Shown here piece by piece: positions 14,058 to 41,633 of a stretch of DNA of 64,000 nt. The position numbers and the translations under genes were made by a program. Position 1 is the stretch's first letter. Every line of letters begins with the position of its first letter. The notes under the pieces are model-generated. The model did no database searches and was not told the origin of the DNA. It was given only the letters and a program-made list of their open reading frames with translations. Origin of the DNA: Erodium maritimum (Eukaryota > Streptophyta > Magnoliopsida > Geraniales > Geraniaceae); NCBI GenBank assembly GCA_963921825.1, contig OY997592.1, positions 64,066,336-64,130,335 of the forward strand, given 5' to 3'.

Positions 14058-14238
14058 GAGCATCTATAGTCGTTGGCGGGGAGAAAACAACGGCGAGGAG
14101 CTGTTGGGGAGCTGGCGGAGAGGTCGTTGGCGGGGAAGCTAGCCGTTAAGCTTATCTCTGGCACTCCTCGCTGGCGTTGTTGACTGGTCTGCCATGGTCG
14201 CCGCGCCGGATGTTGGCTGCTGACGTGCTGGCGACACG

Positions 14239-14281
14239 TGTCGTTCGATCTCTACGAGTGGGGCCCCATATTTAGGTCGTT
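14239..14281 (+). repeat. 43-bp direct repeat of the Myb-like gene's first codons
   Basis: TGTCGTTCGATCT and the following bases to 14281 recur at 14361-14403, offset 122 bp, with two mismatches. The second copy is the start of the Myb-like reading frame, so the leader contains a duplicated fragment of its coding start without an ATG (GTG in its place). Confidence 0.85.
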
Positions 14282-14359
14282 CTAATTCATTTTCACCCAC
14301 ACTTCTACTTTTCTTCTCTCTATTCTATCTACATTCTACTATTTTTTTTCCTTTTGGCA

Positions 14360-15167
14360 ATGTCGTTCGATCTCAACGAGTGGGGCCCCATGTTTAGGTC
14401 GTTGCAGGACGACACAATGACGCAAGAGTTTTTTCCACCAAACCTTCCATCCGATCCCACAAACTTTGCACCTCCAACGCTTACCGAGGCCGCCAGCGTG
14501 GTTCCACCAAAACCTAAAAGGAAGCGATGTATGTGGAGCGCCGAGGAGGACGAGCGGTTAGTTCGAGCTTGGATGCACCATTCGTACGACTCAATTCACG
14601 GGAATCATAAACATAATCTGAAGTACTGGGCGGCCATCGTCGAAGAAGTTGCTGGAACTCGTGGACTTACTGATCCGGTAAGGTCAGATAAGCAGTGCAA
14701 AGACACTGGGGTCAAGTCAATACGAGAGTGACGAGCTTCCAGGGGATGTTCGTCAAGAACTGCAGGGACCACAGGAGCGGTCGCTCCGATGATGAAATCA
14801 TGTCATTGACCGAGCAACAGTACGAATAGGTGAATGGACATCCATTCACTTGGAAATGTTGGTGGAAACTAGTGAAAGACCAACACAAGTGGAATTCAAA
14901 ATATTTTGTCGTGGATCAGCCCGAGGAAGACAATGGAGGCACTTTGTGCACCCAATTCAATGTCGACGAGTCTACGGACTCGGGCAAGCGCAGTCGTGAC
15001 GAAACGACGTTCGAGGAGAGTCAGCAGACCACGAGTGCTACTACAGAGTGCCAAACGTCGTACAAGCGGCCTATGCGTCAGAAGGTTGCCAAAGCTGCAA
15101 AGCTCAGAGCTAAAAACCCTGTAGCATCTAAGAAAGAGAATGTTTACACGATGCCCGGCCGGGGCCA
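14360..15167 (+). pseudogene. Myb/SANT-like accessory protein of PIF/Harbinger (ORF1), disrupted
   Basis: The ATG at 14360 opens MSFDLNEWGPMF. A basic patch (PKPKRKRCMWSAEEDERLV) leads into a SANT/Myb fold with spaced Trp residues and a DKQCKD segment. The frame is lost near 14705: the KDRWGQVN stretch expected in this family is frameshifted. It continues in the next frame (FQGMFVKNCRDHRSG), meets one TAG at 14827, then resumes through FTWKCWWKLVKDQHKW and a Lys-rich tail. So there is one frameshift and one stop. In this superfamily the Myb-like protein works with the transposase to bind transposon DNA and promote nuclear import. This copy could not make a full protein without correction. Confidence 0.8.
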
Positions 15168-15470
15168 AATAATAGGTACTGGCCGGAAGTTTTCGCCAAT
15201 TTTATCCAAAATGCTCCGGCCGATGCCCCACCGCGCACCCATAAGCAGTGCAGGGACCACTGGCAGCATCTAGCCCGGAAAATCCACCGTTTTGAAATTT
15301 GCTACCGTCAAGCAGTTCAGGACACCCCGCTGGGACAAACCGAAGCATACTTTCGATCTACAGCGGCGGACGAGTATGCTAGACGACATGGCCATCAATT
15401 CATGAAGTATTATGTTTGGGAGGTCGTTAAAGACCAGCCCAAATTCCTCCAGTACGTTCACGAGCTGTAA
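15153..15470 (+). pseudogene. C-terminal half of a second Myb/SANT-like protein
   Basis: From 15153 one open frame reads NNRYWPEVFANFIQNAP, then THKQCRDHWQHLARKIHRF, then YARRHGHQFMKYYVWEVV, to a TAA at 15468. The W, CRDHW and KYYVWEVV positions repeat the layout of the first SANT protein (KYWAAIVEE, KQCKDRWG, FTWKCWW), but the sequence is clearly different. This is therefore a second paralogous SANT gene lacking its N-terminal part, joined directly to the tail of the first, probably by an internal deletion. Confidence 0.65.
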
Positions 15471-15726
15471 ATCGTGAATATGTAATTTTATTTCTGTTAT
15501 TCTCTATCTTCTGTGTGTGCTAATTATCGTAATAACAATAAATTATCGTCAGAATTTATAATAAATTTAATTTCTTTAAATGTATTTTTTATCCTTACCG
15601 TCGGCAGCTCCCCGCCGGAAAAAAATGCCACTGTAGCGTGCGCAGACGGTGAGCTGGCTGGGAAAGAAAAAATAACTTTTTAATCCTCCCCGCCAGCTGC
15701 CGGCAAGATGATTGTAGATGCTCTTA

Positions 15727-16322
15727 CCCAATTGAACTGCATTTCCTTGTTTTGCAATGCACGCTTAAGAACTCTAACCTACCCTTGAGAACTCCAATCG
15801 TCACCCATCGTTGACTCGGAACTTAGTGTTTGAAGACCCGCGCGCCACAACACCGAATGACAGACCACCACACAAAAGGAATAGACCACCCAAAAACGCC
15901 GACACAAGGAGATCGTACCATTAGACTCAAAATAGACGAATCGGATCTATTCCCACTGTAAGGTGATTTGAATTAGACCTACGAATCGAATCCATTCTCT
16001 ACTAATTTCTCCAAAATTTAATTCAATCAGACCGGGATTAAACTAATTCAATCTAATCTCGTTGTGACAGGTCTTACATACATCAATAGTTTGAAGAAAC
16101 ATACCATATGGAGCATAATTCAAGACAAGAGTCATTATCATATCAGAAAACTATTTTCTTTCTTGGAATTGGAACATTTTGAATAACATAGTAATTAAGC
16201 CACATGCATACAATTTGGTGTGTGCCCACAGATACATAATTTACCTAAACATCATACCTCCCTATTCCTACCTAACTAACAATTGAACTGAGCGTCAAGT
16301 CAACATGACCCAAACTTGTCTC
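15727..16322. other. Upstream region of laccase 2
   Basis: No gene is visible. The last 150 bp contain AC-rich motifs and a TATA box, listed separately. Confidence 0.6.
16270..16276 (+). promoter_or_regulatory. AC-III-like MYB site upstream of laccase 2
   Basis: ACCTAAC inside TTCCTACCTAACTAAC, about 53 bp upstream of the TATA box. AC elements of this form bind R2R3-MYB factors in phenylpropanoid and laccase promoters. Function here is inferred from sequence only. Confidence 0.4.
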
Positions 16323-16330
16323 TATAAATA
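16323..16330 (+). promoter_or_regulatory. TATA box of laccase 2
   Basis: TATAAATA lies 82 bp before the ATG at 16405, implying a leader of roughly 50 nt. Confidence 0.6.
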
Positions 16331-16404
16331 AAGATATATATGTGTTCAAAAACTCTCTAACTCAGCTTCCCGTCTCTTCTTCATCCATAAGTTTAGGGCA
16401 CAAG

Positions 16405-18785
16405 ATGGCTCGGTTGCCGGCGCCGGAACCGGCAATGTCATGGTTGCTTATTGTTTTTCTCGGTGCTCTTCTTCCCATTTTGGCTCACGCTAAAACCCAT
16501 TACCATGATTTCGTTGTAAGTATATACATATCTACATGTTTGGAGATAAATATTGAAGATAAAAGGTTTATCAACTTTTAGTTTAAGTTACTCTTACTCG
16601 TTTTTCATTTTGGTTGATAGTTGAAAAATAAAAACTTCACGAGGTTATGCGAATCAAAGAGCATGCTAGTTGTGAACGAAAGCTTCCCCGGACCTACTAT
16701 TTATGTGAACAAAGGAGATATAGCGTATATTAATGTTCATAACCAAGGCGACTATGGTATCACCATACACTGGTACGTACTTCAAAACCTTATTAATGGC
16801 TCGAAATGACAATTGACATCGATCTTTAAATGTCTAATGGGACGATACATATAGGCACGGCGTTAAGCAGCCGAGAAATCCATGGTCGGACGGTCCAGAA
16901 TTCGTTACACAATGTCCGATTGAACCCGGTGCAAATTTCACCTACGAGGTCATATTTTCGGTAGAAGAAGGAACTTTGTGGTGGCACGCTCATAGCAACT
17001 GGACGAGGAACACCGTCCACGGTGCCATTGTCATTTACCCCGACGAAGGGACCACGTATCCGTACCCCAAACCCGATGGTGAAGAAATACTTATACTAGG
17101 TAATATATTTGACTGTTTTTTTTTTTACATTCCAGACGATGTGGATTTGATTTATTGAATCGTATGATCGTAATTTGTGTAGGATCATGGTACAAGTACG
17201 ATGTGAATTTAGTGGTGGAATACGACCTAAATGGAGGGTACGACTTGCCTATTTCAAGTTCTTACCTTATTAATGGCCAACCGGGAGATTTTTGTAATTG
17301 CTCTAGAGGTACACTCGCCGTTCCCTTTCTCGTCATTTCTTCAATTGAACCGTTCTAAAAGATAATATCATTTAACTATAGCATTATTAGATTTTACATA
17401 ATTACATTTACGGATGATACAAACTTTCACGTTACTTTCTTGTTTTTAAAAATAACGTGAAAATTTTAAAATCTTAAACATTGTTCAGACGAATTTTTTA
17501 GTTACAGAAAACATGTGAAAATTGATCTTAATTAGATGTAATTAAAGCTTTTATTGCTATGAAAGTTAGGTGTGGGTTGTATTATCTATTAGTAGTGAAT
17601 AGCCGATGATTATTTTGGGTACTTGGCAAACCAAATGTTCCGAGCTAGTGTTCTTTAGCGGAAAGTCAATAGTAACACTATTGTTTTTGCTACAGATTCG
17701 ACCTATAGATGGAAAGTTGACTACGGAAAAACATATTTGGTACGAATAGTCAACGCAATCATGAACGCCGAAGTCTTTTTCGCGATCTCCGACCATAACA
17801 TGACGGTGGTCGGAACCGACGCGGCGTACCTGAAACCCTTCTCGACGAGCTACCTGATGCTCGGGCCGGGACAGACCATGGACGTTTTGGTCACGGCCAA
17901 TCAAGCCCTAAGCGAGTACTACATGGCTCTCCATCAATACTACACGGACAAAGTCATTTTCACCGAGTATGACAAAACGAACATAACGGCGATCGTTGAG
18001 TACAACGGCAACTATACGAAACCAGCCTCACCGTCATTGCCTCCTCTTCCCGCTTACGCTGACTACGACGCCGGGATGAATTTCAACAAGAACCTCCGGA
18101 GCCTCGCCAGCGCCGAACATCCCGTTAACGTCCCTATGAACGTTACTACTCGGATGTACGTGACCACGGCGGTGAATCAGTACTTTTACAACGATAGTGG
18201 AGATACATCCATATTCTTGGCTTCGAGCCTCAACAATGTCAGCTGGATAAACCCTTATATGGATGTTCTACAATCTTACTACAGGTACGAGGATAAACTC
18301 CATCTTCTGTTGTGTAATAAATTATGAGTCAAGCGTGTCACATCGAATATTTTAAAGGGTACACTACATATACATACCCCAAACTTGTAGCGTTTAATTG
18401 ACACATACCCAAAAGTTTTTTTTTAAACTGATACCTGGATGTTTAGTTTTTAACAGAAAGCCCAAACAGACATGTAAAATGACGAAAATGCCCTCAACTA
18501 CATTTCAGTAATTACTTTAAAAAATATTTAAAAAATCACTTTTGTTAGGTATACGTAGGTACTTATTAAATCACTTCAGTTTTATTTAAAAAATCACTTC
18601 AGTTTTATTTTTAAAAAATCACTTCAGGGCATTTTCGTCATTTTACTTGTCTGCTTGGGCTATCTGTTAAAAAACTAAACATCTGAGTAGGTATCAGTTA
18701 AAAAAAACTTTAGGGTATGTATCAATTAAACGCTACAAGTTTGGGGTAAGTGTTTGTAGTTTACCCTATTTTAAAAAAACTAAAG

Positions 18786-18820
<35 letters not shown>

Positions 18821-19559
18821 CTCGGGATCTGATCGGCTAGTCTTTTGAATTAAATAAGATAGCTTAATTTAATAAAAATGTTGTTTGATTGAAAAATTCA
18901 GGAACATAAGTGGGTTTTACACGAATGATTTTCCGGACCAGCCGCCATACTTCTATGACTTCATTGCCGATGATTTGGGAGTTAACACGACAAACCCATT
19001 GAAGGGGACAAAAGTTAAGGTGGTCGAATACAATGAAGAGCTTGAGATAATATTTCAATCCACCAATGTCCTTAATGCATCCGAGGATCATCCCATGCAT
19101 TTGCATGGTCACAGCTTCTACGTTGTTGGTTTTGGTGCTGGCATTTTCGACGCCGATAGAGACCCGTTGGACTATAATTTTGTGGATCCGCCCTTTGTCA
19201 ACACCGCCTCACTTCCCAAGAACGGCTGGCTTACCATCAGATTCAAAGCAAACAATCCAGGTACGCTTGATAATTCTCGTTGATGTTTGCATATTAATAT
19301 GTTTATATATAGTGGTAGAGTACATAAATGACTCGAGGAGTAATATTGTTGTACAGGAGTGTGGTTATGGCACTGTCATCTAGACCGGCACCTGAGTTGG
19401 GGGATGAACACTGTGCTTATAGTGAAGAATGGTGGCACCCCAGAGTCGACCATGCGTGACCCTCCGCTGGACATGCCTTCTTGCAAAGTTTCTTCATCAT
19501 CTTCCCTACAGCTCTATAAGTATAGCAATCAAGTAGAACAACAGTTGAACAAAATGTGA
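16405..19559 (+). CDS. Laccase 2 (LAC14/15-like multicopper oxidase), 7 exons
   Basis: Tandem paralogue of laccase 1 with the same seven-exon plan: 16405-16515, 16621-16772, 16855-17099, 17183-17308, 17696-18284, 18902-19260, 19357-19559, giving 594 aa. An N-terminal hydrophobic segment (residues about 11-29, ending HA) is a signal peptide for secretion. Copper-binding motifs [20 protein letters not shown] and [12 protein letters not shown] are all intact, again with Met at the axial type-1 position. The sequence CATCTAGAC in exon 7 contains TAG out of frame and is not a stop. Exons 2, 3, 4 and 6 have the same lengths as in laccase 1. The C-terminal tail after MPSC is Ser/Gln/Asn-rich and unlike laccase 1. 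Intron 5 contains a foldback element and an AT microsatellite. Expected role: oxidation of apoplastic phenolics or flavonoids. Confidence 0.93.
18357..18766. mobile_element. Mutator-type foldback MITE in laccase 2 intron 5 (copy 2)
   Basis: A 410-bp element with ends GGGTACACTACATATAC and TTTGTAGTTTACCC and a perfect 9-bp duplication TATTTTAAA at 18348-18356 and 18767-18775. The interior matches the element in laccase 1 intron 2 but in reverse orientation. Confidence 0.92.
18788..18817. repeat. (AT)n microsatellite
   Basis: About 15 uninterrupted AT units in laccase 2 intron 5, just after the foldback element. Confidence 0.95.
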
Positions 19560-21738
19560 TGTGCAATGCCAATAAATTTATGTATTTGATAATTTTGTTT
19601 TATTCTGAATTCAGAATCGCAGGTACCCATATACCTTATATATAATTCTTTCTTTTTCTCTACAAATAATATTGATTTATGTAATTGTGGGAGTAAGATT
19701 CCTGATTTTCTTATTGATTGTATTGTGTATATATACAAAGATTAATCATGGTTGAATACATGATATATATGATTAATAAATTCAAATTACAAATGACTTT
19801 TATCTTACTTAACATACCCTCTTAGTCAGAACGGGAGGAGACAAGACGTTCAAACTGACCCTAAAATCTGAGGAGTGGTGTCTACTGTTGTCGCTCTTCA
19901 TCCTCCGTCTAGTTTGTCGCCGGCGGCCGTGAGGAGTGGCGTCTGGCTTGCGGTAGTGGTACGCTCGCCAGGTTCGGGTTTTGCAGGCTTGGGGTAAACA
20001 AGATCTGCCTCATATCTGAGTAGGTCCTCTCCGATCTTGCTCGATTTTGTAGCTCGTGACAGTCTCCGACGTTGCCATGTCGTTCTCGTCCGCTCGCTAG
20101 TTCTGCAGTTCGTGATAGTCGCAGGCGTAGCGATGCTCCGGTGACAACCGGTGCGGGCCGGCTCCTCCGTGTGCGACTGTTTTCGTCGGTGGGTTCGCAG
20201 GTCGCTTTGTCTGTCTTTTCCCGGTGTCTCGTTTCAAATCTGATGTGGGTCACGTTTTTCGTCCTTTGATCATAGATCGTTGCGGACTTGGATGTCTCGC
20301 TCTCGGTGCTCCCGTCTGTTGTTCAACGGTTATTCCTCTCTGTGTGGTGGTGGATGTGATAGCTATGCTGTTCACCAGCGCAGAGGCTAGGATTAGGAGG
20401 CGAGGATGAATTTAGCTTTGGTTTAATTGTTATTTGTTACTATTGAAGTTTATATGATGATAAAATTGTTACTTGTTACTATTTAAGTTTATATTATTTA
20501 ATTGATCACTTGAAAGTTTGGACATGATTCATGAACATATATATTTTACAATTTTTCCTTGATCTTTGTCTTGTAATTACCTTTGTATGTGGATATGTTC
20601 GATGTCAATACTTAATTGTGTCAATACTTAGTCATGTCATATTTAATCAATAATTTGTTTCTTTCTAATTAGCTTTGTATATGGATATATTATATATATG
20701 AGTATGTTACAAGTCAATGTTAATACTCAAGTTATAAAGGGGTCGGGATAGGTTATACCCGACCCTTGGATGAAAATTGGGACGGGTAAAACTGAGTAAG
20801 GACAGAATATATATAGTGGGTACGGGTATCACAAAACCCGTCATGTTGCCATCAGAACACTTAAGCCAAAATCGCCATTGGTTTCTTGTCTCAACTTGTA
20901 TTTATAAATTGCAAACATGACACTCCCTATAAAGGCGAGCCAATAAATTGAGCAATCAGTTATCCAGCATCCATATGCCGACACTGTATCCTCAATTATG
21001 AACCAATGGTTGAACATGTTGACTACCAGTTAAAAAAGGAGGGAGAGTGGATAGGGAGCTGTTTTATCAGCGAGGAAAAGGAGATGAAGTCTTGTGGGGA
21101 GGAATGGTTGGCAGAGTTTGATGTGGTAACTGTTATGGATGGTTGAGAGGTGGAGACGTGATCATTCCACAACCATCAACTTAGACAAGAGCTGTAGATT
21201 TTGCCCCGCACCGACACACCAAGGATGTATCGCCACCGATTCCTATCAGTTTCTTCTGGTTTCAAATGACAGTAAGAGAATAATGTGAAGAGTTCAGATC
21301 ACTAGGTTACAAAAAAAATGCAAACTTAAGACAGGGAAAAACATATTGCTGGCATAGATAAGAAAGATGAAGCTGCTGCAGTAATAAAGTAAACACGGCA
21401 TAGAATGGAATAACTAAAGAACAGAGTCAACCTCCAAGGTTTCGCATTACCCATCATTCAGTGCTTATGCCTTGTGCCACAAAAAAACAAGGCAAGCACT
21501 CACTCAGCTTCTAAACCAAAGCTCCAAAAATACTTATGGCCAACCCGACTCAGTCGAATCTACCTTTTTGCCAAAACTAGGCTATCTTTGAATGAAAAAG
21601 GTCAAATCACAGTCACGCATGCCTCAATCAGACATGCATAGTATACAGCGTGTACAAAAAATGGCGATTACTGGAAATGGCCAGAATAGGAATAAAAGGA
21701 TGGAGATGAATCTGGCAATTCATTTAGTTGGTTCTAAC
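19560..21738. other. Intergenic DNA between laccase 2 and the Rab gene
   Basis: AATAAATTTA near 19569 may serve laccase 2 polyadenylation. From 19850 to 20410 the DNA is GC-rich with loose internal repeats (CGTGACAGTC/CGTGATAGTC) and no convincing frame; it resembles the GC-rich leader of a retroposon. Around 20735-20850, ACGGGTATC...AAACCCGTC...TTGCCATC resembles a truncated end of the hAT miniature element at 32641-33386. The last few hundred bases probably hold the 3' UTR of the Rab gene. Confidence 0.4.
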
Positions 21739-24700
21739 TCAGCATGCACAGCCACCTCTCTGTTCTGTCTCAACAGCCTCCGGTATCCCCTGGAAGTATC
21801 TGTAAACAACATCGACCAAACATCTCATAGAATTAGTTAAGATATGACAATAATATTATTTACATGTGCTGCGGAGTTCAGTTTTCTACTATCTAAAATA
21901 AGATTAACTTATTGCATATAACTAAACTAAAACATATAGCTCTAGAAACAGGGAGGCTCACTCATGTCAAGAAAAGAAATTGATAGTGCAATAAACAGAA
22001 CCATACTAGAAACCATCATTTTACACTTCAAACATCAGCATATGTTAATGTAAATTGGTATTCCGGTTGCAATGGTAAACGGTTAATTGCACAATTCACA
22101 CATTATAAAGAAATATTTTTAAGTTAATTTGGGAGATAGCGTTTGATTTCACATTCATGATTTCAGTGCCAATGTTTCAAATACAAAATCAACTCTAGAG
22201 TTTGGGAATTAGCATTTTTTTTATACTCTATGCTTAAGGATCCCACTCCTCTCATCCACTTTGAAGGACTCAGAATCATTACGGGAATATAAATGAACGA
22301 AGGAAAATACCAGTTCCTTCCAACAAAATGCTGCCTTCATATTAAAAGGTATCTAAAAATTTCAAAATAAAAATGGATGCCATGTGCACTACAGATTGGC
22401 TTTAGCCTAAAACAGAATTCCAACTTACGTGAAGAACATGGATAATTACTACACACAAAAAAAAACTAAGCGGGAGTATCTCAAATCTTCATAATGGCCA
22501 TCACCATGCTTTATAACAGAACATTAAGATAGATGTACAGAGACAAGTTGCACCCACTATCCTACAGGAACCATAGTGATGCTTCACAATGTACACCAAG
22601 AGTTCCACACACTTTGTGTTATATAAACAAAACTGAAGGTTTTACAGTCATTCCTTATTCCAGGAAATGGTGCAAACCTTCATCATCTCTACCAAACCAC
22701 GGTTATAACTGATCAGCAGCCACAAATGCATCTTTTGTCGTCTTTTCATTTACTTCTTTCGCTCTATTACTTGTGTTCGACAATGGTAACAGTTGATTAT
22801 TAGATGTGTATCCATTATGCAGATGTTCTCTATTTTCCTTAATGGTCTGTTATGTATATAGTAATGTAAATAGGGATTTGGAAAGAATAAAAATCTGTCT
22901 CAGGATTTGGCATCCTATGCACATCTGTTATGTACTTCACATCAACCAAAACTGATTCAACGAGTTTTTTAAAAAGGCTAATGTCTAAGACTGTGATAGG
23001 AAAATGTTACCGATGCAAGGTCAGCAGGCTTTAGATACCTAGCCTGTGGGCATCCTTAGCATTAATGATCGTACATATCCTAATTACGTTATACTAACCC
23101 TTCTCCACAGTTTTAGGCCATTAACATTTTAGTTTTATTCCCTTAAAAAAAACATTGTAGTTTTATGTGATAAGCACCTAACCAAGTAGTTATAACCATA
23201 ATAAATGTCAAATTAGTGCATATAATAGATGGTGGAATTTTAGCTTGGGAACCATTATCCTCTTATGACTGTCACTATTACGTAAGAAGCCACACATATT
23301 ATGCCAACTTCATATAAGGTAGAAACTGGCTGTCAAGTAAACTTACATGTCCTGATCATGCTCATTGGCTAAAGCAGCTTTGGCAATGCAAAGGAATGCT
23401 GCATCAACATTGTAGTCCTCTTTCGCTGATGTTTCAAAGTATGGTATGTTACCTTTTGAAGCACACCATTCCTTTGCTTTCTTCTCAGAAACCTGTACAC
23501 GACAACAGATTAGACCAACATTAAATGAAAATGATTTAGCTAATTCTATAGTTGTATATCCTTACCACTCGACTATTCCCTCCATCAATGTCAATCTTGT
23601 TGCCAAGCAATATAAAAGGGAAGGTCCCGGGATCAGGTGGATTTGCCTAGGACAGCGCGAATTTGAAAGCAAGTCAATACTCCAAACAGGAAACAAAGTT
23701 ATTCGTAAGGATTTTGCAATAAAAACTCAAGGAACTACAAGTGAACCAAAAATGGTAGGCAACTGAAAATGGTTGTATTGTATGAGAAACGGAGAAACGT
23801 AATACTACAAACAATTAAAACACATAATTGTACATCATATGAAGATCCAGATACCAAAGCTAGTAGATGGATGACAATTATGCACCATTTTATGGCATCG
23901 TGCCGGCTAAAAGAGCCACGGAAATGTGGATGTCAAAGGACCAGGTTGAGCAACACTTTTCACCAGCAATATTGTCAGAAATTGAACACTAAAATCTACA
24001 TTTCAGCTTTTGTCAAAGCTTTCTGATAAAAAAATATATGCATCCCAAAGTAATGGGAATACAAAAGAATTTTTCAACAGTCAAATTTTCTCTATCCATC
24101 ACCCTCACAAACCTCTATAATCCTTCTAAACATTGATAGAACTATAATTATTTTTATAGGGTGGAGAAAATATCATAGATGAAAAAAAAACAGATCAAGG
24201 CATCATATTTCTCAAATTGTATATACATCAGAAACACACAAAAAATATTTCAAATTGATCAGGGAGACAAAAGCCATCATTAGACAAAATAATCAGTAAT
24301 GCATGTTTTCACCTTCACACTGTTGTATTGATCAAAATTGTTTTAAGATTGTGCTTCAAAGCATAAGAATCTATTCGAAAGAGAGCAAATATCGCAACAT
24401 AAACTGTCAGTTAGATCGAGAAAATCAACATGCTCCCACTCCAAACAATTGTTACTGAATACACTAATTTTAAAAATCAAGTCAACCATGAACCGTAAAA
24501 GCACTAAGTTTTCAAATTAATCATGGGTGGCTTTCACAGAACAAAATAAAGATCAAACAATCTACAAAATCCAGCTAATCATTAGAAAACCCTGCACTCA
24601 TAACTTTAATTTTGGCAGGTACAAAGTTTAAGTAAAACAGTCAAGGATTTCGCTTCCCACATTGATTACCTTTCTAGTTTACACTCATTCCACTTAAAGA

Positions 24701-26351: not shown

Positions 26352-26643
26352 ATCTATAGTAGAGGTGGGCAAAAAAAACCGAAACCGCTAAAACCAACCA
26401 CCACCAATCAAAAACCGTACCGGAGAACTCGGAACCGGGATCACCGGCGACATTTTCGGTGGAGAGACGTCCGAACCGAAAAATTAAGGTTGGTTGTCGC
26501 TTTTTAAAACGTCAAACCATCGGTTAACCAACTAAACCGGTATTAATCATCATATACATGTGGCTTCATAATAGTCACTGATCCGATGCAGATGAATAGC
26601 CCGTGAGCACTCTTCCGCGTCACACGGATTGTCAACATAGAAC

Positions 26644-31036: not shown

Positions 31037-31183
31037 TAATCGTCTTTGGCTTCAAGCTCGAATTCAGAATGTAACTCAATGTTATTATTGTTGCATCTAC
31101 AAATAAGGTTAATTTCATGAATAATATATATTCAAAAAATTGAATATACTACATAATTTTTAAATACCAGGTTGCAAACATAT

Positions 31184-31188
31184 GCGGG

Positions 31189-31231
<43 letters not shown>

Positions 31232-31256
31232 AGGTGTTCGATCCACCTTCACCGCA
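31184..31256 (+). tRNA. tRNA-Phe: tRNA-Phe (anticodon GAA)
   Basis: A 73-nt gene without intron. The acceptor strand GCGGGGA pairs with TCACCGC, and A is the discriminator. The D arm carries the A box TAGCTCAGTTGGG, the anticodon loop reads CTGAAGA, and the T arm TTCGATC is part of the B box. It differs from the plant tRNA-Phe sequence I know only in two T-stem pairs, which change together (AGGTG pairing CACCT in place of GCGTG pairing CACGC). TTTT at 31262 is a Pol III stop. It lies about 150 bp from the divergently read membrane protein gene. Confidence 0.95.
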
Positions 31257-31261
31257 TATAC

Positions 31262-31265
31262 TTTT
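31262..31265 (+). terminator. Pol III terminator of tRNA-Phe
   Basis: TTTT six bases after the tRNA 3' end. Confidence 0.7.
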
Positions 31266-31544
31266 CTGTTTTTGATAGCAAATATCCACGAAAACTCGTA
31301 TTCATTGCTGGTGTAATCACACGACAGTTAACATTTTTAAAAAAAAATATGCTGCCATGCATTTATGGAAAATATTAGTTGTTGTTGAGTGGGTATGAGT
31401 GTGGCATGTCCACTCGAGCTATATAGATGAGCATCTAGAGTTTTTTTATATATATAAGAAGCAAAATGATTAATATTATACAAAAAGATTGAGTCTAATA
31501 ACCTGTACAGTTGATCAAATTATCACAAGTTAACTTAGCTATCA

Positions 31545-33543
31545 GCAACTTTGCGGCCGTCAACAAGAGCTTGCTTTTGAAGTGGTGGTGGCGGTTTGTC
31601 ACGGAGCGGACTTTCTTATGACGGAGGGTGTTATGTGCTCGGCATGGCTGGGTCGAGTACGAGTGGAATCTCTCTTGTCTTCCGCTCGCTCATTGCTCCT
31701 CTTCTCTGTTTCTTCGTCATATTGCTCATCTAGCTCAAGATCCTCGCTTTCCTGAGATTTTTGGTCCGGGGAAGGTCCGTTGGGTGTTAGGTTCTGGGTG
31801 TTTCATCCGATTCTGGGAGGATGCTTGGGGCACAGATGTTCCTTTTTCGACTCTGTTTCCTCGCCTTTACCTCTTGTTGGTAGAGCAAAGTCACAGTTAT
31901 TCACTTCAAAGTGAACGATGGGTGGAATTTCACTTTCCGTCGTTACCTCTTAGATAGAGAGCTCCTCGCCTTGAAGGACATATGCACCTTTCTCTTGGGC
32001 GTTCGCCTCAACTTCTCAGGTCCTGACAGATTGTCCTCCTGGTCCTTATATCCCCACGGTTTTTCGACATCGGCAGCTTTTAATGCCTTTTCCAACGTCG
32101 ACGGGGTGGACTTTGTTTTCTGGGCTTGCATAGTTTGGAAGAGCGCTGATTCGTCTAAGGTCCAATCTTTTGCTTGGCTTGTCGCTCTGGATGCCATCCC
32201 TACTAGATCTTTCTTGGCGGCGAGGGGTTTCTCGATCCCTGTGTGTCTTTGATTGTGCCCTATGTGTGGCAGACACATCGAGGACACATCTCACCTTTCT
32301 TATTACTTGTGGATGGGCTGGGCAAGTGTAGTCCTTGGTTCTTCAATTGTGGGGGGTCTTCTCAGCTCTCCCTTCTTCTCATGCTTTGTTCATCTCGTAA
32401 TGGCATTCAATTTGTGGGGTGCGCCGCCTGCGTAAATCTTGGTCTCGTCTCAGCTTTTTGGTATTATGATTCCTTTGGTTAGCTCGGAACGCCAAAAGTT
32501 TCCAAGGAGCTCCGATCCCTGATCCGTTTATCATTCTTCGGAGAATTTAGTTCGGGGAACTTACGTTGCTTCAAGCGAATCGTCGAGCCACATCTCCTAG
32601 CTCCTGGATGGTGTCGCTGACTCTTGCTCTATCTCAGCATTAGGGATGGCAGAAAAACCCGAACCCGATGGGGACCCGAGGTCCCCGACCCGATCGGGGC
32701 GGGGAAAACCCGATCAACCGGGTATTTGACCGGGGACGGGGCGGGGACGGGATTGGTACCACCCGCCCCGAACCCGCCCCGGTATTATTATTAAATACAA
32801 AAATATGTTATGAAGCAAATAAGTAACATTGGTGTAGTGGTAAAAGGCTTCCTTATTTGTCCAAGGACTTGGTTTTGATTCTCCACAATATCAAGAATTT
32901 TTATTTTTGTTTTGATTTGTTAAACTTAAATCACAAAATAAGTAGAACTTGTATGTTTCGAAACCAAGACCTCATGTAGCCAAGATTACCTGGAGTACCA
33001 CTGAGCTATGTATACATTTGCGTTAGTTGATTATTTCTATTGTATATGTAGTATTTAATCAATACGTAAAACACAAAGTTTCAAGTCCCACATCGCCCGC
33101 GTACAAGGTGTTCATCACTTTGCTTCTCTATAAAATGAAGCATTAGTTTGCTTTACTTACAACTTATTTATGGGCTTATTCTACCATAATAATCTAGTAA
33201 ATTTTTGGGTCTATATTAAATATGGCCTAACATTTTTTATAGTTGACAAATTTTTATTTATTTTAGTTCTGAATTTTTTGGAACATATTTGTAAAATCGG
33301 GGCGGGTCAATTTCGGGGCAAGGTGAAATCGGGGCGGGGTCGGGTATCATGAAACCCGCCCCATACCCGCCCCGTTGCCATCCCTACTCAGCATGCTTGA
33401 GCTCCTCCTTTTTTTCATCTTTTTCGGCCTCTTGGGTCATGTAGACTTTGTCTGGATCTTTTTATTGGTTTGGTGGTTTGTGGTTTTGTTTCCCGGAACC
33501 TACATCACTTATTAATGCATTATTTATTTTCTTATTAAAAAAA
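31545..33543 (+). mobile_element. 5'-truncated LINE (zf-RVT end of ORF2), split by an hAT MITE
   Basis: Translation gives segments of the zinc-binding region after the reverse transcriptase of plant LINEs: ALLLKWWWRFVTER, then VRWVLGSGCFIRFWEDAWG, then SSKVQSFAWLVALDAIPTR, then CPMCGRHIEDTSHL. Frames shift between segments, so it is dead. The 3' UTR resumes at 33395 (TGTCTGGATCTTTTTATTGG) after the hAT element and ends in an A-run at 33537-33543. The missing 5' two thirds are typical of incomplete reverse transcription. Confidence 0.8.
32641..33386. mobile_element. hAT-type MITE, 746 bp, inside the LINE
   Basis: Inverted ends TAGGGATGGCA and TGCCATCCCTA, with the perfect 8-bp duplication CTCAGCAT at 32633-32640 and 33387-33394. 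CGGGGCGGGG-type repeats lie under both ends. There is no coding capacity. Confidence 0.93.
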
Positions 33544-34470
33544 CTTTTATTACTATTCTGAGATACAAATAGACCATCACATCTCCTAGAGAATTTAAAG
33601 AGAGTCATATATTCTTAATAATAGAACCATCTAAAGTATCAAACGATCAATAAAAAACGATTAAGATTACACTTAAGACAACCGACTCCCCTCCAAAACC
33701 TGCCAACAAAGCACTATACTTTACTTTGAACCCTCACGATCAAAACCAAACACTAACACGCTGAGTGCAGAAAACTCCTGCTTGGAAGCAGCTTTTACAC
33801 CAAGGAATGTTCATAACGTGATTTCTACCCACCATGCCCAAGTCAATCCTCATTTTTCCGAACCCCGACATCCATATTTAGTTTTAAACCTCCAATCGAA
33901 GGAATTTACCATCTCAAAGTATAAACGTGAGCCTGTCCACCTACATGACACTACCTCTATAAAATAAAGGAGTGGAAATCCTGAAATCAGTCATCGTTAC
34001 TAGATATGAGTCTCTACCAAGATCTCCACGAGCATCTAGAGTTAGACGATAAACCATTTTTATTTAATCATTTGGGCTAAGCCGATTAGCGATTGAGTTA
34101 TATTTAAGAGAACATACAATAGGACCTTGAACACATGGTGGTGGGAACTCGATTGAGCTCCCGAAATCGAATCTGGTGCATGTTGTTGTCAAGTAAAGTT
34201 AGGCAGCTATAGGAGATTTAGAGGTTGTGGGGATGGGAGAAGAGGTGGAAAGTAAAAGAGAATGGTCGGTCGCTGGTGTGGGGTAGTAGTTGGAGGGAAG
34301 ATCAGATGTAATAGAGGTGGACAAAATTGGGGTAGAAAGGAGGAGTATTGTTGGATGAGCTCGGCCATACTCTGACGATAGCATAAGAAGGAAAACATAA
34401 AAGGAAACTCCATTTTGTTTTAAAAAGTAAAGAGAGAATGTGAGAGGAATAAACTCAGAGCACGCGAGTG
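33544..34470. other. Intergenic, nothing recognised
   Basis: Mixed-composition DNA with only short frames lacking known motifs. Part of it may be old repeat sequence. Confidence 0.5.
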
Positions 34471-34499
34471 AGATGCTCAAGACACCTTAAAATTTTAGA

Positions 34500-34990
34500 C
34501 AGAGTAGTGTTTTACAACTATTGGATGAGGCTGGGAGTTACAGCTCAACCACACCCACTAGTATCGGTGAAGATTACACGCCTCTCGATGGTGACTCCCA
34601 ACATGATTGTCCATATTCCGATCCGACAGAAGGAGGTTCTCAAGAAATACCCCCTTCACATACGACGGAAGGAGGTGGGTCGGAAGGTCATTCATCTCAT
34701 ACGATCGAGGGAGGCTCTTCTCGAACACCCCCTCCTGAAAGACCGCTGGGCAAGAAGGCTTCGAAGAGGAAGGAGCAGGTCCTCACCGACCAAATGACTG
34801 CCTATTGGACACTCAACGAGCAAAAGCCGAGATAGCTCGAGTAAACCTAGAAAGGGGTCGTCAATATCATGATTTACAACCGCAATGACAAAAATTATAC
34901 GACAAGTATGAGGCCTTGCAGGATAAAGATGTCTCCGACTACAACGAAGACCAGGTGACCCAACACATCAGATGTCATGATTGTAGGCAT
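34500..34990 (+). pseudogene. Possible C-terminal fragment of a transposon Myb/SANT-like protein
   Basis: The frame at 34521-34835 has repeats of the form EGG(S/G)...PSHTTEGG, then PLGKKASKRKEQVLTDQM. A frame shift near 34830 leads to KAEIARVNLERGRQYHDLQ. Acidic linker, basic KKASKRK patch and charged helix resemble the tail of Myb/NAM-like accessory proteins of PIF/Harbinger elements. No element ends were found around it. It could also be an unrelated gene fragment. Confidence 0.3.
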
Positions 34991-35073
34991 GACTGGAAGA
35001 CCTTGAGACATTCGTCAAGACCCACAACTATGAGGCGAACATGGAATATATGCTTCAACTTATATTTTGTTGA

Positions 35074-35100
35074 ATCTTATAATATATAATAGCAAAGTTA
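35074..35100 (+). other. Possible Helitron 5' end
   Basis: TCTTATAATATATAATAGC, preceded by A and followed by TTAACAGTTGACATGGC, resembles the TC-starting, AT-rich 5' ends of plant Helitrons. It might pair with the 3' end at 42821-42841. Low certainty. Confidence 0.3.
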
Positions 35101-35164
35101 ACAGTTGACATGGCAGCTGACGTGGCGTTCTATACTTACTAAAAATCTCATTTCTTGGCTCTAA

Positions 35165-35988
35165 GAGCATCCACATCTCCAGCATTATCTTAGCATCACT
35201 TAAGGAGAGAAAAACAAGTGTCACGTGGAAAAGAGATAATACTTTTTAGTGATGATTAATTTTTTGTTTGCAATGGAGAAATGCTAAGGTAAAATTAAAA
35301 TTAAAATTTTATTTTATTACTATTTTATTGAATTACTTAATTTATTTTTATTTTCCAAATAAAATGTAATGTAATACAATAAATATGTAATTTATTTCAA
35401 AATATCGACTGCACATGAAATTGAGCTATAAAAAATATATTTTTGGAATTTAAAAAATGTGTCAAAAATATATATTATGAAAATATAAAATTTGAAAACC
35501 TATTATATTTTTAATCTTCGAAATAAAAAATTAATTACTCTTGAAACTAAAAAAAATAGTATTATATTTTACAAATCTCAAAAAATGATTTGATAATTGA
35601 TGGTTTGAAAATATGGTTGCATTACACTTCAAAAAGAATTTATTTTTAATTTTCTTTGAATTAAATCAGTTTTTCCCTAATTTTTTAGTGGGTCAAAACT
35701 CAAAACCAATTAATGTTTGTCAGATTTCAATTAATTCCGAAATTTAAAAAAAAAGACAGTAATGCTAATACACGACTGATTGTAAAATTTAAAATGAAAG
35801 GAAATAAATTGATATCCAACCGCTTGGATAAAGTTGAATAAAAAATAAAAATAAAGTAATGGATAGCGCTACCGGCACATATGGCGTTGGCGGCTCGAGA
35901 CCGTTACCCAACCATTTGGTTCTGCAGCCCAGACGTTGGTGTGGCATTGAATTAGCGTGGGATTAACATCTCATGGTTGTGGATGCTC
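35165..35988. mobile_element. Non-coding PIF/Harbinger element, 824 bp
   Basis: Ends GAGCATCCACA and TTGTGGATGCTC with the duplication TAA at 35162-35164 and 35989-35991. The middle is very AT-rich with no frame. Ends match the other three PIF/Harbinger elements in the window. Confidence 0.88.
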
Positions 35989-35991
35989 TAA

Positions 35992-36580
35992 GTTTGTTCG
36001 GACTCGGCTCCCTCTTCCTTTTTCAGTTTGGCGTTCGTCTGTTACGAGTCTTAAACTCTTCCTGTTGTTATCCTTCTATCAATGTGCAATTAAACCGTCC
36101 TCAATGGTGCTAATACCTCTAAGCCCTCTTAATTAGGTCCTAGGTTTCAATTACTTTCAATGCTCGGCCGTTTCATTTTTCCCTTCTCTCAATTCATATC
36201 TGATGCGTTTCTGGTATATTAGGGACGATTCTGATTGTGATTGTCATAAGTAGAAGTCAATAGAAACGAGTTCAACTCTGATAGAGAGTTTCACCCGAGT
36301 ACTGTTCGTGGATCGATGGATTGGATCAGAGATGTTGAAATTGACATGGGAATGGACGAGCCACGAAGGCGGATGAAGAAAAGGAAGAGTTTTGGGTCAT
36401 CCGGTTTTGTATAAGAGTTCGGCTCCGATCATCTCTGATTTCCTCTCCGTAAGTTCTTACCTAACTTCTAGATTTCTATGATTTTGATTTTTGAATGGTA
36501 TATGGTGCGTGATTTTTGAGTCTGCGATGCTATGCATATGAGTTTTTTTGTTCAAGTCTCTGGTCTTTCCGTTGCACACG
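35992..36580 (+). other. Unassigned sequence with leader-like features
   Basis: A short frame from the ATG at 36316 (MDWIRDVEIDMGMDEPRRR) ends after about 32 codons. CTCTCCGTAAGTTCTTACC near 36443 looks like a 5' splice site. This may be the 5' leader of a lost or captured gene, cut off by the solo LTR at 36586. Confidence 0.3.
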
Positions 36581-36585
36581 CCATT

Positions 36586-39543
36586 TGTCACGTCCCAAAT
36601 CCGGTTTTGACCGGACTCGAGACGTGACCTGAGTTGAAATAATTAGGAAACGTAAACGATAGATAAAGGTTCCAAAATCTCATACCAACTTCGTCAAAAA
36701 CGACATATCAGTAAATAGTTTAAAACAGCGTGAGTCACAGCTCAACATAAATAGTCAAATAAGGTATGTCCAACACAAGAGACCAACATAACTCTAGTGC
36801 GAACCCGAAGAGTCCCAAAGCTCCCTAGCCTCGGCCTCTCTAGACATCCGGTACTCCTGTAAAACAGTTAGAAACCAAAGGGGGTGAGCTGACGCTCAGT
36901 AGGAAAAACCTTAATGATTCAACCCTTAAGTTAAAGATGAACTGTCTACGAATGTAACCCGAACGACAGGACGATATAATAAACAAGGAAATGATAAGAA
37001 TAAGAAATAATTGCAACAACGTAATAGTATCCAAGTAACAGTGACATAAATAAATTCATAATAAATAATTTAAAGGACGAATAATAATAAACTGGGAAAT
37101 ATCAGTATCTTGCCAACCACTTGCTTTCTCAAGCCTCCGATCCGTGAATAGATTCTGGGATCACCTCGGTTCCCATAACCCGATCCACCAGAGTATCCAC
37201 ATCACGTCAGATTTTCCCTCGGTCCAGAGGAGGTACATGCACCGAGGCACCGAAACTAATTCGGAAATGCCACCTAAGGACCATATGTCATAGGGGACCA
37301 AGTAGTGCACCCACTGGGATGCAGTTCCTTGGGGTGAAACCATAAGTAATCCTTTCCCCGCAGGGTAAAATATCCAGTTGCCCGCAGGCCCAATAATCCA
37401 TGCCCCGCAGGGTCCCATAACCAATTGCCCGTATGCCCAATAATCAATGCCCCGCAGGGTCCCATAGCCAATTGCCCGCAGGCCCAATAATCAATGCCCC
37501 GCAGGGTCCCATAACCAACTGATATCCCGCAGGATCTGCCAATACTCAACTCTCATAATATCCAGTAACCAATACTCTCACGCTCTAAAACTCGGTCAAT
37601 AACTCACTGTAACTGTCCAACTCCAACCACCTCATCGGCACCGGATTACCCACCCACCCCCCCGGTGTAGTACCAAACCAAGCAAACAAATAGCTAAACC
37701 AATAAATGAGCATACAATCAAGAACAAGAAAGAAAAAAAAAGGAAAAAGTACTTCGTTCACCCATCAAGCATCACACATCAGAACACACTTTCATCATAA
37801 CCAAGACAACAACACCATTTCATACTTACCGTGTACTTACCTGTCTCCAACCATCGGTACATCGATCACCTGATTGTACCCCTTTGGCACAATCAGTCAT
37901 ACTCGATCATCCGTTCAACCAACAATTATATCAGCATAAATACTAGATCAACCAAGTGTACATTCCACCAATCAATCATCATGTGAATACACCAAATAGC
38001 ATTCAATCATATGAGATAATCTAGTTTCATTAGACTCTTAAGTTAACCGAGCAATTAGCAACCAAACATGTGAACCTAGCACACAACTAATCCGAGAGCT
38101 CTTCACAGCCTCTCTACCAGTAAATCAATTTCCCAAGTATTGAAAGCACACTTCACTAATTGTCACTCATCCGTTTATTAGTAATGGAAATACGATTATT
38201 CTAGTTATTCGCACCCTATAGGCAGTTCTAGGACCTTTCCGATTTTATTATCCTAAACATGCATTCTAAGCGGTAATGAAGTAATTAAGGCTTTCCCTAC
38301 CTTGCGGTCTTCCGACGAACAAATACTCCTATCAACAGCTGTCCGGCTCGCCTCGTCACCTCGGCGAAGTCCCAGCTACGAATCTGGGTTTACACACAAA
38401 CGATCCAAAATCAGATCGGGTCCAGATTAACCAGTTCTTTAAATTAACAGATCTTCATTTCCGTTGATTAACCGCTTAATCTGATAAAAGTCTGACTTAG
38501 TCCCAAGTGTCGTTTAAATCAGTTTTAAAAGATTAATTAAACGAGTTTGTCCAAACGGTCCGTATCCGATCCAGTCCCGGGGTCAGGCCCGAGTCCGGAC
38601 CCGAAGACCAGAGTCAGTCTGGGCCAAGGCCCAGACCAGATTCGAGCCCAAGGCCCAAATCCTGTCCAGGCCGAAGCCCAGCTGAGCTCCGAGCCCGAGC
38701 CCAAGGTCTCGCCTCGTCCGGTTTGAGCTGAAGACGCCGTGGCTGAGGTTAGGTTTCCGGCGACTCCGGCGGCGGTGGCGTCAGGGTTTCGACGGCGGCT
38801 CCGGCGTCTGATGGGTTGACATAGGGTCAGGACTCAACGGAAACGAGGGTTGGGGTGAGGTCCGAACCCTCCCGACCAGATCTGGCGGCTAACCGGCTCG
38901 CCGGCGACGTGAATCGCGGATCTAGAACTCGGAGAGTTCGACGACGCTCCCGACCTCCTCTGTGAGCCTGACGCCCCTTAAATCGACGCGAGAAGAAGGG
39001 GGACGGGGAGGAACCAGTGAGGAACGACTCACCGTGTGAAGTTCTGCCTGAATCAGGCACGGTGGGCTCGTCCTTGTCGGCGGCGGCGTTGAATCGGAGA
39101 GGGAGAAGACGGGTGGGGGTGCTGGGTTTCTGGCACGTCGGGTAGAAGAAGACGGAGAAGAGGAAGAAGAAGAAGTGGTGGGTGTGAGGGAGCTCGGAGA
39201 AGAAGAAGGTGAGGTCGCCGGGGAAGGAGAGGGAGACGGCGAGGAAGGGTCTCGGTTCGAAGGGAGAGAGACAGGTCTCGTCTCGGTCGGCGTGCAAAAC
39301 TGAGGCTGAAGAAGGGTCAAGAGCCCTTTTAAGGCTAGGGTTTGACGGGGTTTAGGCTCGGGTCATCCGGGCCTGCGCACGAGTGGCGTGGGCCTACTGG
39401 CTCGGGCCCAACTCGCGTCTGCCTCTGTCCAGCCCAGAAATGCTCTTAGTCCCTTTTTTTTTTTAAACCAACCTCGATGAAAAAACAAACCCCAAGTAAC
39501 AGTTTGCACTTTAATACCCTTTTAAACCAAACCGGGTTTTACA
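36586..39543. mobile_element. Gypsy-type solo LTR, 2,958 bp (fossil)
   Basis: Begins TGTCACGTCCC and ends GGGTTTTACA, giving the TG...CA ends of an LTR. It is flanked by the perfect 5-bp duplication CCATT at 36581-36585 and 39544-39548. There is no internal region or second LTR, so it is a solo LTR left by recombination. Length and layout (a 47-bp tandem repeat region, then a GC-rich promoter-like end) resemble LTRs of large plant Gypsy elements such as the Tekay/Del group; that assignment is from memory. The GC-rich end with CCTTAAAAGGGCTC read on the - strand suggests - strand transcription. Confidence 0.85.
37355..37530. repeat. 47-bp tandem repeat inside the solo LTR, about 3.6 copies
   Basis: GCCCCGCAGGGTCCCATA recurs at 37402, 37449 and 37496 with constant 47-bp spacing. 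A diverged copy lies near 37355, and the last copy is partial. Confidence 0.9.
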
Positions 39544-39659
39544 CCATTGATTGGGTAATTTAGTTTCATGTTCTGACGGTTTTGAGCCAAATTTAGGTGT
39601 CCAAGCATTGATAGGTTTTGATGTTTTCTACTTATATTGGGAGTTGGACTACGTACTTA

Positions 39660-41630
39660 GAGCACCCACAGTCGTGGGCGAGGAGCAGCTGGCGAGATGT
39701 CTTCGCCGGCGAGGAGGAGGCGGGGAGCTGGCGAGGAGCAGGCGAGATCAGCGCTGGGGAGGACCGTTGGCGACGTGCTTCTCGCTGGCAGTTCACGCCG
39801 GCGAGATGAGATGAAGATCTCATAAATCTTTTTTGTCCAATAAAAAAATGCATGGTTTCAATGCTATTTGTTTTGAAAATTTAACCTCACCTATATTATC
39901 CAACAAATATATGTACGTCCAATCGAATAACCTTGATCGTCGCTCACCATAACTACAACATTTATAATAAACCTAACCAAAACCTTACATAAACCCACCC
40001 TCACAAACTAAAAATGCACACACTCTCTACTATTCATCCTTTTCATCTTAGAATCGTCCCGACAGTCATCCTTGTTTGTCCGTCATCATGGAATTCGATC
40101 CCGAGGATATGGAATTCAATTCTATGTTGAATGACATGCTCGAAGACTGTCTGTCAACCGAGGAGACGCTTTGGTGGATTCTCCACCAAAGAAGCGCAAA
40201 TACATTCGACGTGACCGGGTAGCCGCAAACGAACGGTTAATGAATGACTACTTCAACACCAACCCTGTGTACACCGAGGTGCAGTTTCGGCGTCGGTTTA
40301 GAATGCCAAAGTCGGTGTTCCTCCGTATCGTTCATACATTGGAGCAGCACGACGATTACTTCAAGGTTTCCTTTGATGCATTGGGTCAAGTTTCATTATC
40401 TACTTACCAGAAATGTACTGCCGCCATTAGGCAATTATGTTACGGAATTGCAGCTGATGCGTTGGACGAGTATGTGAAGATAGGGGAAACAACAACTTTG
40501 GAATGTTTGCGCACATTTTGCAGTGCACTGAATAAAGTCTTTGGTGCTACATACCGGCGGAAGCCTACACAATCTGATATGGACCACATTTTGGCGGTTA
40601 ATGAAGCGCGCAGATTCCCGGGCATGCTAGGAAGTCTTGACTGCATGCACTGGGAATGGAAGAACTGCCCAAAGGCCCTTCGAGGGTCACATTCCCGAAG
40701 GGACCACGGTAATCGACCAACCGTGGTCCTTGAGGCGGTTGCAACTCGTGACTTATGGATTTGGCACTCTTTCTTCGGCATGGCGGGGTCGAACAACGAT
40801 TTGACGGTCCTGAATCATTCGAAGCTGTTCGCGGACGTTATCAACGGTTGGCAACCACCGGTTGCATACACCATAAACGGTAATGATTACACACTTCCTT
40901 ATTATCTTGCTGACGGTATTTACCCTTCGTGGCCAGTGTTCGTAAAAACAATTTCGTTACCGTCAACGCTGAAGCAGGAAGGATGTGGAACGAGCTTTCG
41001 ACGTACTACAAGCTCGGTTTCACATTATCAAACAACCGACCCGCTTGTGGGCTCCTAAGTCGATCGGTTTGGTCATGAATGCGTGCATTATACTGCACAA
41101 TATGATAGTTGAGGCTGAACGTCATACGTACGACGGGTATCGTGAACAAACAGAAGAAGGTAGTACAAGTCAACCACATATTTCACGAGGAGGCTTCGTC
41201 CCGACCAATGTCATACTTGGAAACACTGAGAGGATGCAAAGTGAACGTATGCATTTCCGTTTGAAGGACGATCTTGTCGAACATCTCTGGAATAAATTTG
41301 GAGACGCGTAGATGTTAGTTGGTGTAGTTTCCTTTGTATTACGTTGCTTGGTTTTTAATTTCCTTTGTTTTGGTTTCTTAATGAGTACCTCTATCCTTTT
41401 ATGTTATCGGGCGTTCCATCTTATCGATGTTTACTATTTTATTCAAAATCTGGGTTGTTAAATAAAAAAACATTAAAAACCTAAATTTCTTTGCATCTCG
41501 CCGGCGCCTCCTCGCCAGCCCACTGTAGAGCTCGCTGGCGGGGAGCTGGCGAGATGATTTAATTCTATTATTTTATTCCATCTCGTCGGCGCCATCTCGC
41601 CGGCAGCCGGCGAGATGAGTGTGGATGCTC
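39660..41630 (+). mobile_element. PIF/Harbinger element B, carrying transposase sequence only
   Basis: The 1,971-bp element begins GAGCACCCACAGTCGTGGGC and ends with the inverted GTGTGGATGCTC. TTA duplications lie at 39657-39659 and 41631-41633. CGCCGGCGAG/GCTGGCGAG words crowd both ends. It encodes a Harbinger-type transposase but no Myb-like partner. Confidence 0.9.
40088..41311 (+). pseudogene. Harbinger-type (DDE) transposase, disrupted
   Basis: From the ATG at 40088 the acidic N-terminus (MEFDPEDMEFNSMLNDML) runs about 25 codons. The frame then shifts before the main frame (VDSPPKKRKYIRRDR from about 40171), which contains FRRRFRMPKSVFLRI, GSLDCMHWEWKNCPKA and FFGMAGSNNDLTVL, then YYLADGIYPSWPVFVKTI. 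A second shift near 40980, probably a small deletion at a repeated GGATGT/GATGT, leads to VERAFDVLQARFHI and ACIILHNMIVEAE, ending at a TAG at 41309. The catalytic Asp (LDC), Asp (NNDL) and Glu (VERAF) are all encoded, but in different frames. This enzyme class cuts and pastes elements at TTA/TAA sites. Two frameshifts and no internal stop suggest recent loss. Confidence 0.87.
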
Positions 41631-41633
41631 TTA

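Follow-up and report, generated by a model that had tools for sequence, protein, structure and literature searches.

Transposase and Myb-like genes on separate PIF/Harbinger elements with related ends: a probable bipartite transposon system in Erodium maritimum

Virtually all characterised coding PIF/Harbinger elements carry two genes, one for a Myb-like ORF1 protein and one for a DDE transposase (open-access text of PMC2836001). The Ping/Pong system needs ORF1 as well as the transposase, and experiments in yeast delivered the two from separate vectors; mutation of the Myb-like domain abolished detectable excision and mutation of the catalytic domain reduced it approximately 150-fold, according to the same text (PMC2836001). 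As suggested in PMC4055405, the Myb-like protein binds the subterminal regions and recruits the transposase. Complete transposase elements without a detected orf1 are described in Medicago, at 11 of 22 in the body of the article and 8 of 22 in its Table 2, with deletion invoked for two of them (PMC2213677, text and Table 2).

The DNA analysed here, a stretch of 64,000 nucleotides that we refer to as the window, contains two TTA-flanked elements, A and B. The original prediction described these as PIF/Harbinger elements with matching ends, A with Myb-like sequence only and B with a transposase only, and proposed either a split pair acting in trans or two copies that had each lost the other gene by deletion. 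We consider it probable, at roughly two chances in three, that A and B both belong to a bipartite, Pong-like PIF/Harbinger system and have since decayed. Their features, in window positions, are as follows.

14055..14057, no strand: TTA target-site duplication, left of A (read from the sequence)
14058..15723, plus strand: element A, a Myb-only PIF/Harbinger element, internally deleted (relatives with matching flanks are 2,168-2,327 bp)
14058..14078, plus strand: 5' terminal repeat of A, GAGCATCTATAGTCGTTGGCG (end pattern search)
14363..15143, plus strand: gene 1 of A, Myb domain and part of the C-terminal region (tblastn with P0003, Pfam, deletion junction)
15143..15144, no strand: internal-deletion junction of A, 618-622 bp relative to L030 and L010 (comparison with relatives)
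15144..15449, plus strand: gene 2 fragment of A, residues 22-123 of a short second Myb/trihelix-like protein (79% to gene 2 of L020)
15705..15723, plus strand: 3' terminal repeat of A (3' pattern search)
15724..15726, no strand: TTA target-site duplication, right of A (read from the sequence)
39657..39659, no strand: TTA target-site duplication, left of B (read from the sequence)
39660..41630, plus strand: element B, a transposase-only PIF/Harbinger element (Pong-like), defective copy
39660..39680, plus strand: 5' terminal repeat of B, GAGCACCCACAGTCGTGGGCG (end pattern search)
39678..39808, plus strand: 5' subterminal repeats of B, GCYGGCGAG type
40088..41308, plus strand: Plant_tran DDE transposase gene of B, 421 aa in intact sisters (Pfam, alignment to a sister)
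41494..41630, plus strand: 3' subterminal repeats and 3' terminal repeat of B
41631..41633, no strand: TTA target-site duplication, right of B (read from the sequence)

The coordinates originally given for the two elements proved exact to the base. Element A reads as TTA, GAGCATCTATAGTCGTTGGCG...AAGATGATTGTAGATGCTC, TTA, with inverted ends of 15 nt at 87% complementarity, and B as TTA, GAGCACCCACAGTCGTGGGCG...GAGATGAGTGTGGATGCTC, TTA, with a terminal inverted repeat in which GAGCACCCA agrees with GAGCATCCA, the complement of the 3' end, at 8 of 9 positions. A 21-nt pattern spanning both 5' ends occurs, with at most three mismatches, at two places in the 64 kb, namely A and B, compared with 0.02 expected from shuffling, which together with the TTA on both sides of each element bears out the claim of related ends. 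The 3' pattern also finds only A and B in the window but is a weak test by itself, since 0.39 occurrences are expected and two or more were obtained in 7 of 100 shuffles. The subterminal DNA, described beforehand as rich in GCTGGCG, indeed holds six and seven CYGGCG/CGCCRG motifs in the outer 260 bp of the two ends of B and four and two in those of A, compared with 54 in the whole 64 kb. The same outer 260 bp contain 6-9 motifs per end in B, in its intact sister L003 and in L073, a Myb-only element of a second family, and fewer in A; when the ends of L003, L073 and A are shuffled base by base, the mean is less than one. Weaker cases are the L073 5' end and the two ends of A, for each of which the largest count in 2,000 shuffles equals or exceeds the observed count.

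Both window copies are dead or damaged. Gene 1 of A has a frameshift near 14704 and lost its 3' end to the deletion at 15143/15144, where 618-622 bp are absent by comparison with two full-length relatives and the start of gene 1 is joined to the gene 2 fragment. The Myb-like sequence of A matches PF00249 (2.4e-5, Pfam) and no transposase is present in A, so the predicted division of gene content stands for both elements except in one respect: A contains pieces of two different Myb-like genes and not one. Comparison with an intact sister shows that the transposase gene of B is broken by two deletions, one of 10 bp at 40170 and one of 32 bp at 40973. Elsewhere in the window, A is flanked by two open reading frames (7578-8219 and 17737-18327) that we take, by their likeness, to be related to multicopper oxidases/laccases. 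A 47-bp tandem repeat (3.5 copies, 89% matches) lies at 37356-37518, and Copia-like retrotransposon remnants occupy 57711-60522, with a 48-bp tandem repeat at 57950-58080; the open reading frames of these remnants presumably derive from a gag zinc knuckle, an integrase and a reverse transcriptase-like sequence.

Relatives of both elements were sought in the genome (763 Mb, 40 contigs). A nucleotide search with B gave 2,984 first-look candidates, of which the best 40, B included, were scored; 39 of these 40 match B in a single alignment of 1,930-2,041 bp that covers at least 97% of it, with identities of 91-96% for the copies other than B. Among 28 B copies that were read, 15 retain the full 421-aa open reading frame. 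TTA or TAA flanks match on the two sides in 23 of the 28; of the remaining five, L008 and L058 have unlike flanks, and the alignments of L042, L050 and L051 are truncated or displaced at one end. The best 99 of 11,090 candidates from a protein query were all at least 89% identical, and 48 of them lack an internal stop. The intact sister L003 encodes a 421-aa protein with matches to Plant_tran (PF04827, 3.8e-89) and DDE_Tnp_4 (PF13359, 9.1e-11), which we take to belong to the branch of PIF/Harbinger transposases called Pong-like. D188, D241 and E315 are invariant in six transposase copies and may form the catalytic DDE triad. Structural comparison added little, as the predicted transposase model was unusable (pLDDT 31) and a sequence search of the PDB gave a best E value of 0.68 for the transposase and no match for gene 1. 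The 15 intact transposases have a dN/dS of 0.48 at a dS of 0.033 (Nei-Gojobori), a ratio that is biased downward because intact copies were selected. The genome also has a large load of other Plant_tran (Pong-like) sequences: a PF04827 search gave 8,912 candidates, the best 150 of which were scored and include many long open frames. These 150 places are distinct from the 99 scored for the B-type transposase and represent other Plant_tran families, whose Myb partners may fall outside the Myb lists compared below.

Element A likewise belongs to a recurrent type. When the best 40 of 1,353 candidates from a nucleotide search were scored, A included, the alignment of most relatives broke near position 1081-1088 of A, and the 618-622 bp absent from A were present in L030 and L010. 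These relatives are approximately 2.2-2.4 kb long and carry two Myb-like genes and no transposase. The ends of ten loci were checked: six (L010, L013, L024, L030, L031 and L033) are 2,168-2,327 bp long with matching TTA/TAA flanks, L034 (2,223 bp) and L011 have unlike flanks, and L017 and L035 have no recognised 3' end. We therefore rejected the idea that A is simply B minus its transposase, as the genes inside A form another set, found again in its 2.2-2.4 kb relatives. A second Myb-only family, of which one copy (L073) was read, has the same plan. L073 is a TTA-flanked element of 2,403 bp with no transposase, an intact gene 1 of 327 aa (PF00249, 4.7e-7; PF13837, 1.6e-6; NAM-associated PF14303, 6e-10) and a gene 2 with one stop (L073:1032-1421, minus strand). 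The best 40 of 1,861 candidates related to it, L073 included, contain 29 that align end to end, at 2,337-2,416 bp.

Gene 1 of L073, used as a query, matched over residues 1-327 without a stop in 24 of 122 scored matches. Gene 2, which lies downstream of gene 1, encodes a short Myb/trihelix-like protein of approximately 125 aa and is free of stops in 57 of 150 scored matches, one of which is A's own fragment. It resembles the gene 1 domain at 24% identity (E 7e-12), its Pfam Myb scores fall below the curated cut-offs and it has no NAM-associated match. Its predicted fold, from a five-row alignment, has five helices with a mean pLDDT of 83; compared with the PDB, this gave 32 matches, none with E at or below 0.001, the best being the DNA-binding domain of fission-yeast Sap1 (E 0.93). 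We found no description of a second short Myb-like gene on a PIF/Harbinger element in the portions of the open-access literature that deal with these elements. All 44 of the sequences examined that have a gene 1 match also have a gene 2 match, but several are overlapping loci and, because the two genes are distantly related, some of the joint matches are cross-hits (e.g. L040). Single-copy pairwise comparisons of L073 with members of the A family (Nei-Gojobori) give dN/dS values of 0.33 and 0.27 for gene 1 (dS 0.95 and 1.08), and 0.33 and 0.44 for gene 2 (dS 0.76 and 0.55), where the L073 sequence has one stop; between A-family copies they are 0.46 for gene 1 and 0.53 for gene 2. The ratios between the subfamilies indicate that both Myb genes were kept for their proteins and are signs of purifying selection. 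If the Myb-only layout was inherited and did not arise twice, it was already present when the subfamilies split.

The original prediction treated A and B as a matched pair, and this part did not hold up. At the 5' end L073 and L003, an intact B copy, have 102 bp in common at 83% identity, and at the 3' end 146 bp at 82%, all other matches between them being at most 41 bp. The ends of 28 elements (19 of the 28 B copies read, eight A-family elements and the one L073 copy) were then compared over 100 bp at the 5' side and 150 bp at the 3' side. L073 has a mean identity of 79% (5') and 75% (3') with the 19 B copies, and of 54% and 56% with the eight A-family elements, even though genes 1 and 2 are common to both Myb families; A-family and B ends agree at 51% and 54%. 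Judged by these outer sequences, and from the single L073 copy read, A is not the nearest partner of B and the L073 family is the better match. The ends follow the presumed partner and not the Myb genes, and the pairing is supported by 20 scored Myb places just inside exact B-type 5' ends. The A-type 5' end pattern occurs at four places genome-wide, one being A itself and the other three lying just before a scored Myb match. With four places only, A's own transposase partner cannot be traced by this end, and the genome-wide search with the pattern found none for the A family.

The genome holds 380 exact copies of the 21-nt B-type 5' end, GAGCAYCCACAGTSGTGGGCG, and 316 matches to the 3' end pattern, compared with none for the backwards control of either. 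The first 100 of the 380 5' ends, covering C1 and the first 31 Mb of C2, were listed and inspected for genes within 2.45 kb inward, on either strand. Fifteen have a scored transposase, 20 a scored Myb match, none both and 65 neither. An exact 3' partner was found for 28 of the 100: nine at 307-340 bp, five at 920-1,400 bp, four at 1,936-2,009 bp (all with a transposase), nine at 2,246-2,405 bp (seven with a Myb match) and one at 7,904 bp (C1:30041518-30049421), with none between 2,405 and 7,904 bp. The 7,904-bp pair has no scored match inside and may reflect nested insertion, two adjacent elements or one large element. The same-ended pairs of approximately 330 bp (e.g. C1:73026292-73026630) are, judged from their ends, candidate MITEs of this system.

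Within the scored lists, the two genes are also not linked beyond chance. Among 256 transposase and 374 Myb places, all distinct and drawn from the top-scoring lists, two pairs lie within 10 kb of each other, with 2.5 expected at random, and in both the Myb match is outside B's own ends. As a control for this joining of best-scoring lists, 73 of 150 gene 2 matches proved to have gene 1 on their own strand, no more than 4 kb upstream. Both candidate two-gene elements were rejected, C1:117756236 because the Myb fragment is approximately 360 bp outside the B ends, and C5:7601477 because the Myb match is approximately 590 bp past the B end and on the opposite strand. The former locus (L040/L072, C1:117.754-117.759 Mb), where a B copy and an old Myb-element fragment are neighbouring insertions, is the only one of the B loci read at which Myb sequence was seen. 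Neither the best-scoring matches nor the 100 listed 5' ends yielded a two-gene relative with such ends, the fractions of first-look candidates scored being 40 of 2,984, 40 of 1,353, 149 of 7,228, 99 of 11,090, 40 of 1,861 and 150 of 8,912. The check proposed with the original prediction, whether single-gene elements recur, thus has a positive answer, as transposase-only and Myb-only copies each recur and no two-gene element appears among the matches listed. The split arrangement itself is upheld as a recurrent layout in which each type is multi-copy with many intact frames; A and B themselves are dead copies of it.

These elements have the usual traits of PIF/Harbinger transposons, with TWA duplications (TTA in A, B and L073; TTA or TAA in 23 of 28 B copies), terminal inverted repeats and a Plant_tran/DDE_Tnp_4 transposase. 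Gene 1 supplies the Myb-like domain of a conventional ORF1, but among the matches listed the two genes never share an element. Two single-gene lineages with shared ends explain the data and separate accidental losses in A and B, the simpler alternative offered at the outset, do not, because the relatives of A and those of B each carry the same single-gene layout. This is compatible with their having arisen long ago from a two-gene element through complementary deletions. We propose that the B family (approximately 2.0 kb) would supply only the DDE transposase, and the A and L073 families (approximately 2.2-2.4 kb) only Myb-like proteins, namely gene 1, with Myb and NAM-associated regions, and the approximately 125-aa gene 2. 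A Myb protein encoded by one element would bind the GCYGGCG-type subterminal repeats of both types, and of the approximately 330-bp elements, and recruit the transposase encoded by the other, so that each type would depend on the other and common ends would persist because one protein pair must recognise both. Action in trans is an inference from the work on Ping/Pong, whose mechanism has no requirement for the genes to share one element. This two-element account with common ends is the most economical. Its fullest form is plausible but somewhat short of probable: a truly bipartite, mutually dependent system, in which common-ended lineages have long been separate, Myb subfamilies at a dS of approximately 0.5-1.1 keep their two genes, ends match the element's own transposase partner over its Myb relatives, and the short second Myb protein sets dose.

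The main rival is a living two-gene Pong-like master that mobilises both types, which would be its internal-deletion products, with the single-gene state incidental. Internal deletion is common in the superfamily, and the approximately 620-bp deletion of A and the end pairs at 307-1,400 bp fit such a history, as do the orf1-lacking elements described in the open-access texts on Medicago (PMC2213677) and an orchid (PMC6327408). The shared ends of approximately 100 bp (5') and 146 bp (3') would be expected from a common two-gene ancestor, a rare master could be missed when only the best-scoring fraction of candidates is examined, and 65 of the 100 5' ends in the list had no assignment to either gene. 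We nevertheless regard a living master as unlikely, given that both genes lie inside 0 of 100 listed B-type ends with no excess linkage, that none of the 28 exact end pairs falls between 2,405 and 7,904 bp, and that many open frames and a dN/dS well below 1 between Myb subfamilies are not what passive passengers would show.

A self-sufficient B, whose own transposase binds its ends and for which the Myb elements are independent passengers or regulators, is less likely again. The numerous and mutually similar B copies would suit it, and a transposase without orf1 is known from the low-copy MtPH-E elements of Medicago, as far as these are described in PMC2213677; against it, Ping/Pong needs both proteins (experiments in PMC2836001), Myb genes 1 and 2 are open in many scored copies with low dN/dS, and the Myb family that has B-type ends is also present in multiple copies. 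We give very little weight to a last reading in which gene 2, Myb-like and lacking the NAM-associated tail, would compete by occupying the ends and so restrain transposition, making the Myb element part helper and part repressor. Its short sequence related to the gene 1 domain, the missing NAM-associated match, the position of gene 1 upstream in 73 of 150 matches and the 57 of 150 stop-free copies would all suit a competitor, but would equally suit a second required subunit, and neither the sub-threshold Myb scores nor the predicted fold, with no significant PDB match, favours it.

If the bipartite reading is true, a transposon can survive as a cooperating pair, its genes being divided between two elements for each of which tens of copies were scored. 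It would become testable how such a pair avoids losing a partner, why unlinked elements keep matched ends, and whether splitting aids escape from silencing or feeds the short same-ended elements. For excision assays, the two families would also offer naturally separate sources of the Myb protein and the transposase. Transposase elements without orf1 were known; what appears new is the reciprocal pair of single-gene families. For such reciprocal transposase-only and Myb-only PIF/Harbinger families we found no report in the accessible part of the open-access literature, as distinct from subscription journals and Repbase.

On the bipartite reading, the two-segment layout is comparable to that of a segmented virus. 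Full-length L1 persists beside HAL1 (half-L1), an ORF1-only LINE. HAL1 is similarly a single-gene derivative of a two-gene transposon that forms its own lineage and arose several times, but it is a retrotransposon (PMC5753468). The orchid PIF PePIF1 has remnant copies lacking ORF1 or the transposase; it differs in having 66 putative autonomous two-gene elements, its remnants being called defective in the available text (PMC6327408), whereas no two-gene form occurs among the matches listed here. The MtPH-E elements of Medicago include complete elements with a transposase and no orf1, but they number three, two of them with a transposase, have a different terminal inverted repeat (GGGCCTGTTTG...), and have no reciprocal Myb-only element in the portion of PMC2213677 that describes them. 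Rice Ping, Pong and mPing are similar in having a separate Myb-like ORF1 protein and a DDE transposase, together with short same-ended non-coding elements to which the approximately 330-bp elements may correspond (open-access account in PMC2836001); in Ping and Pong both genes lie on one element, whereas here they lie on two, and the Myb element carries a second Myb-like gene.
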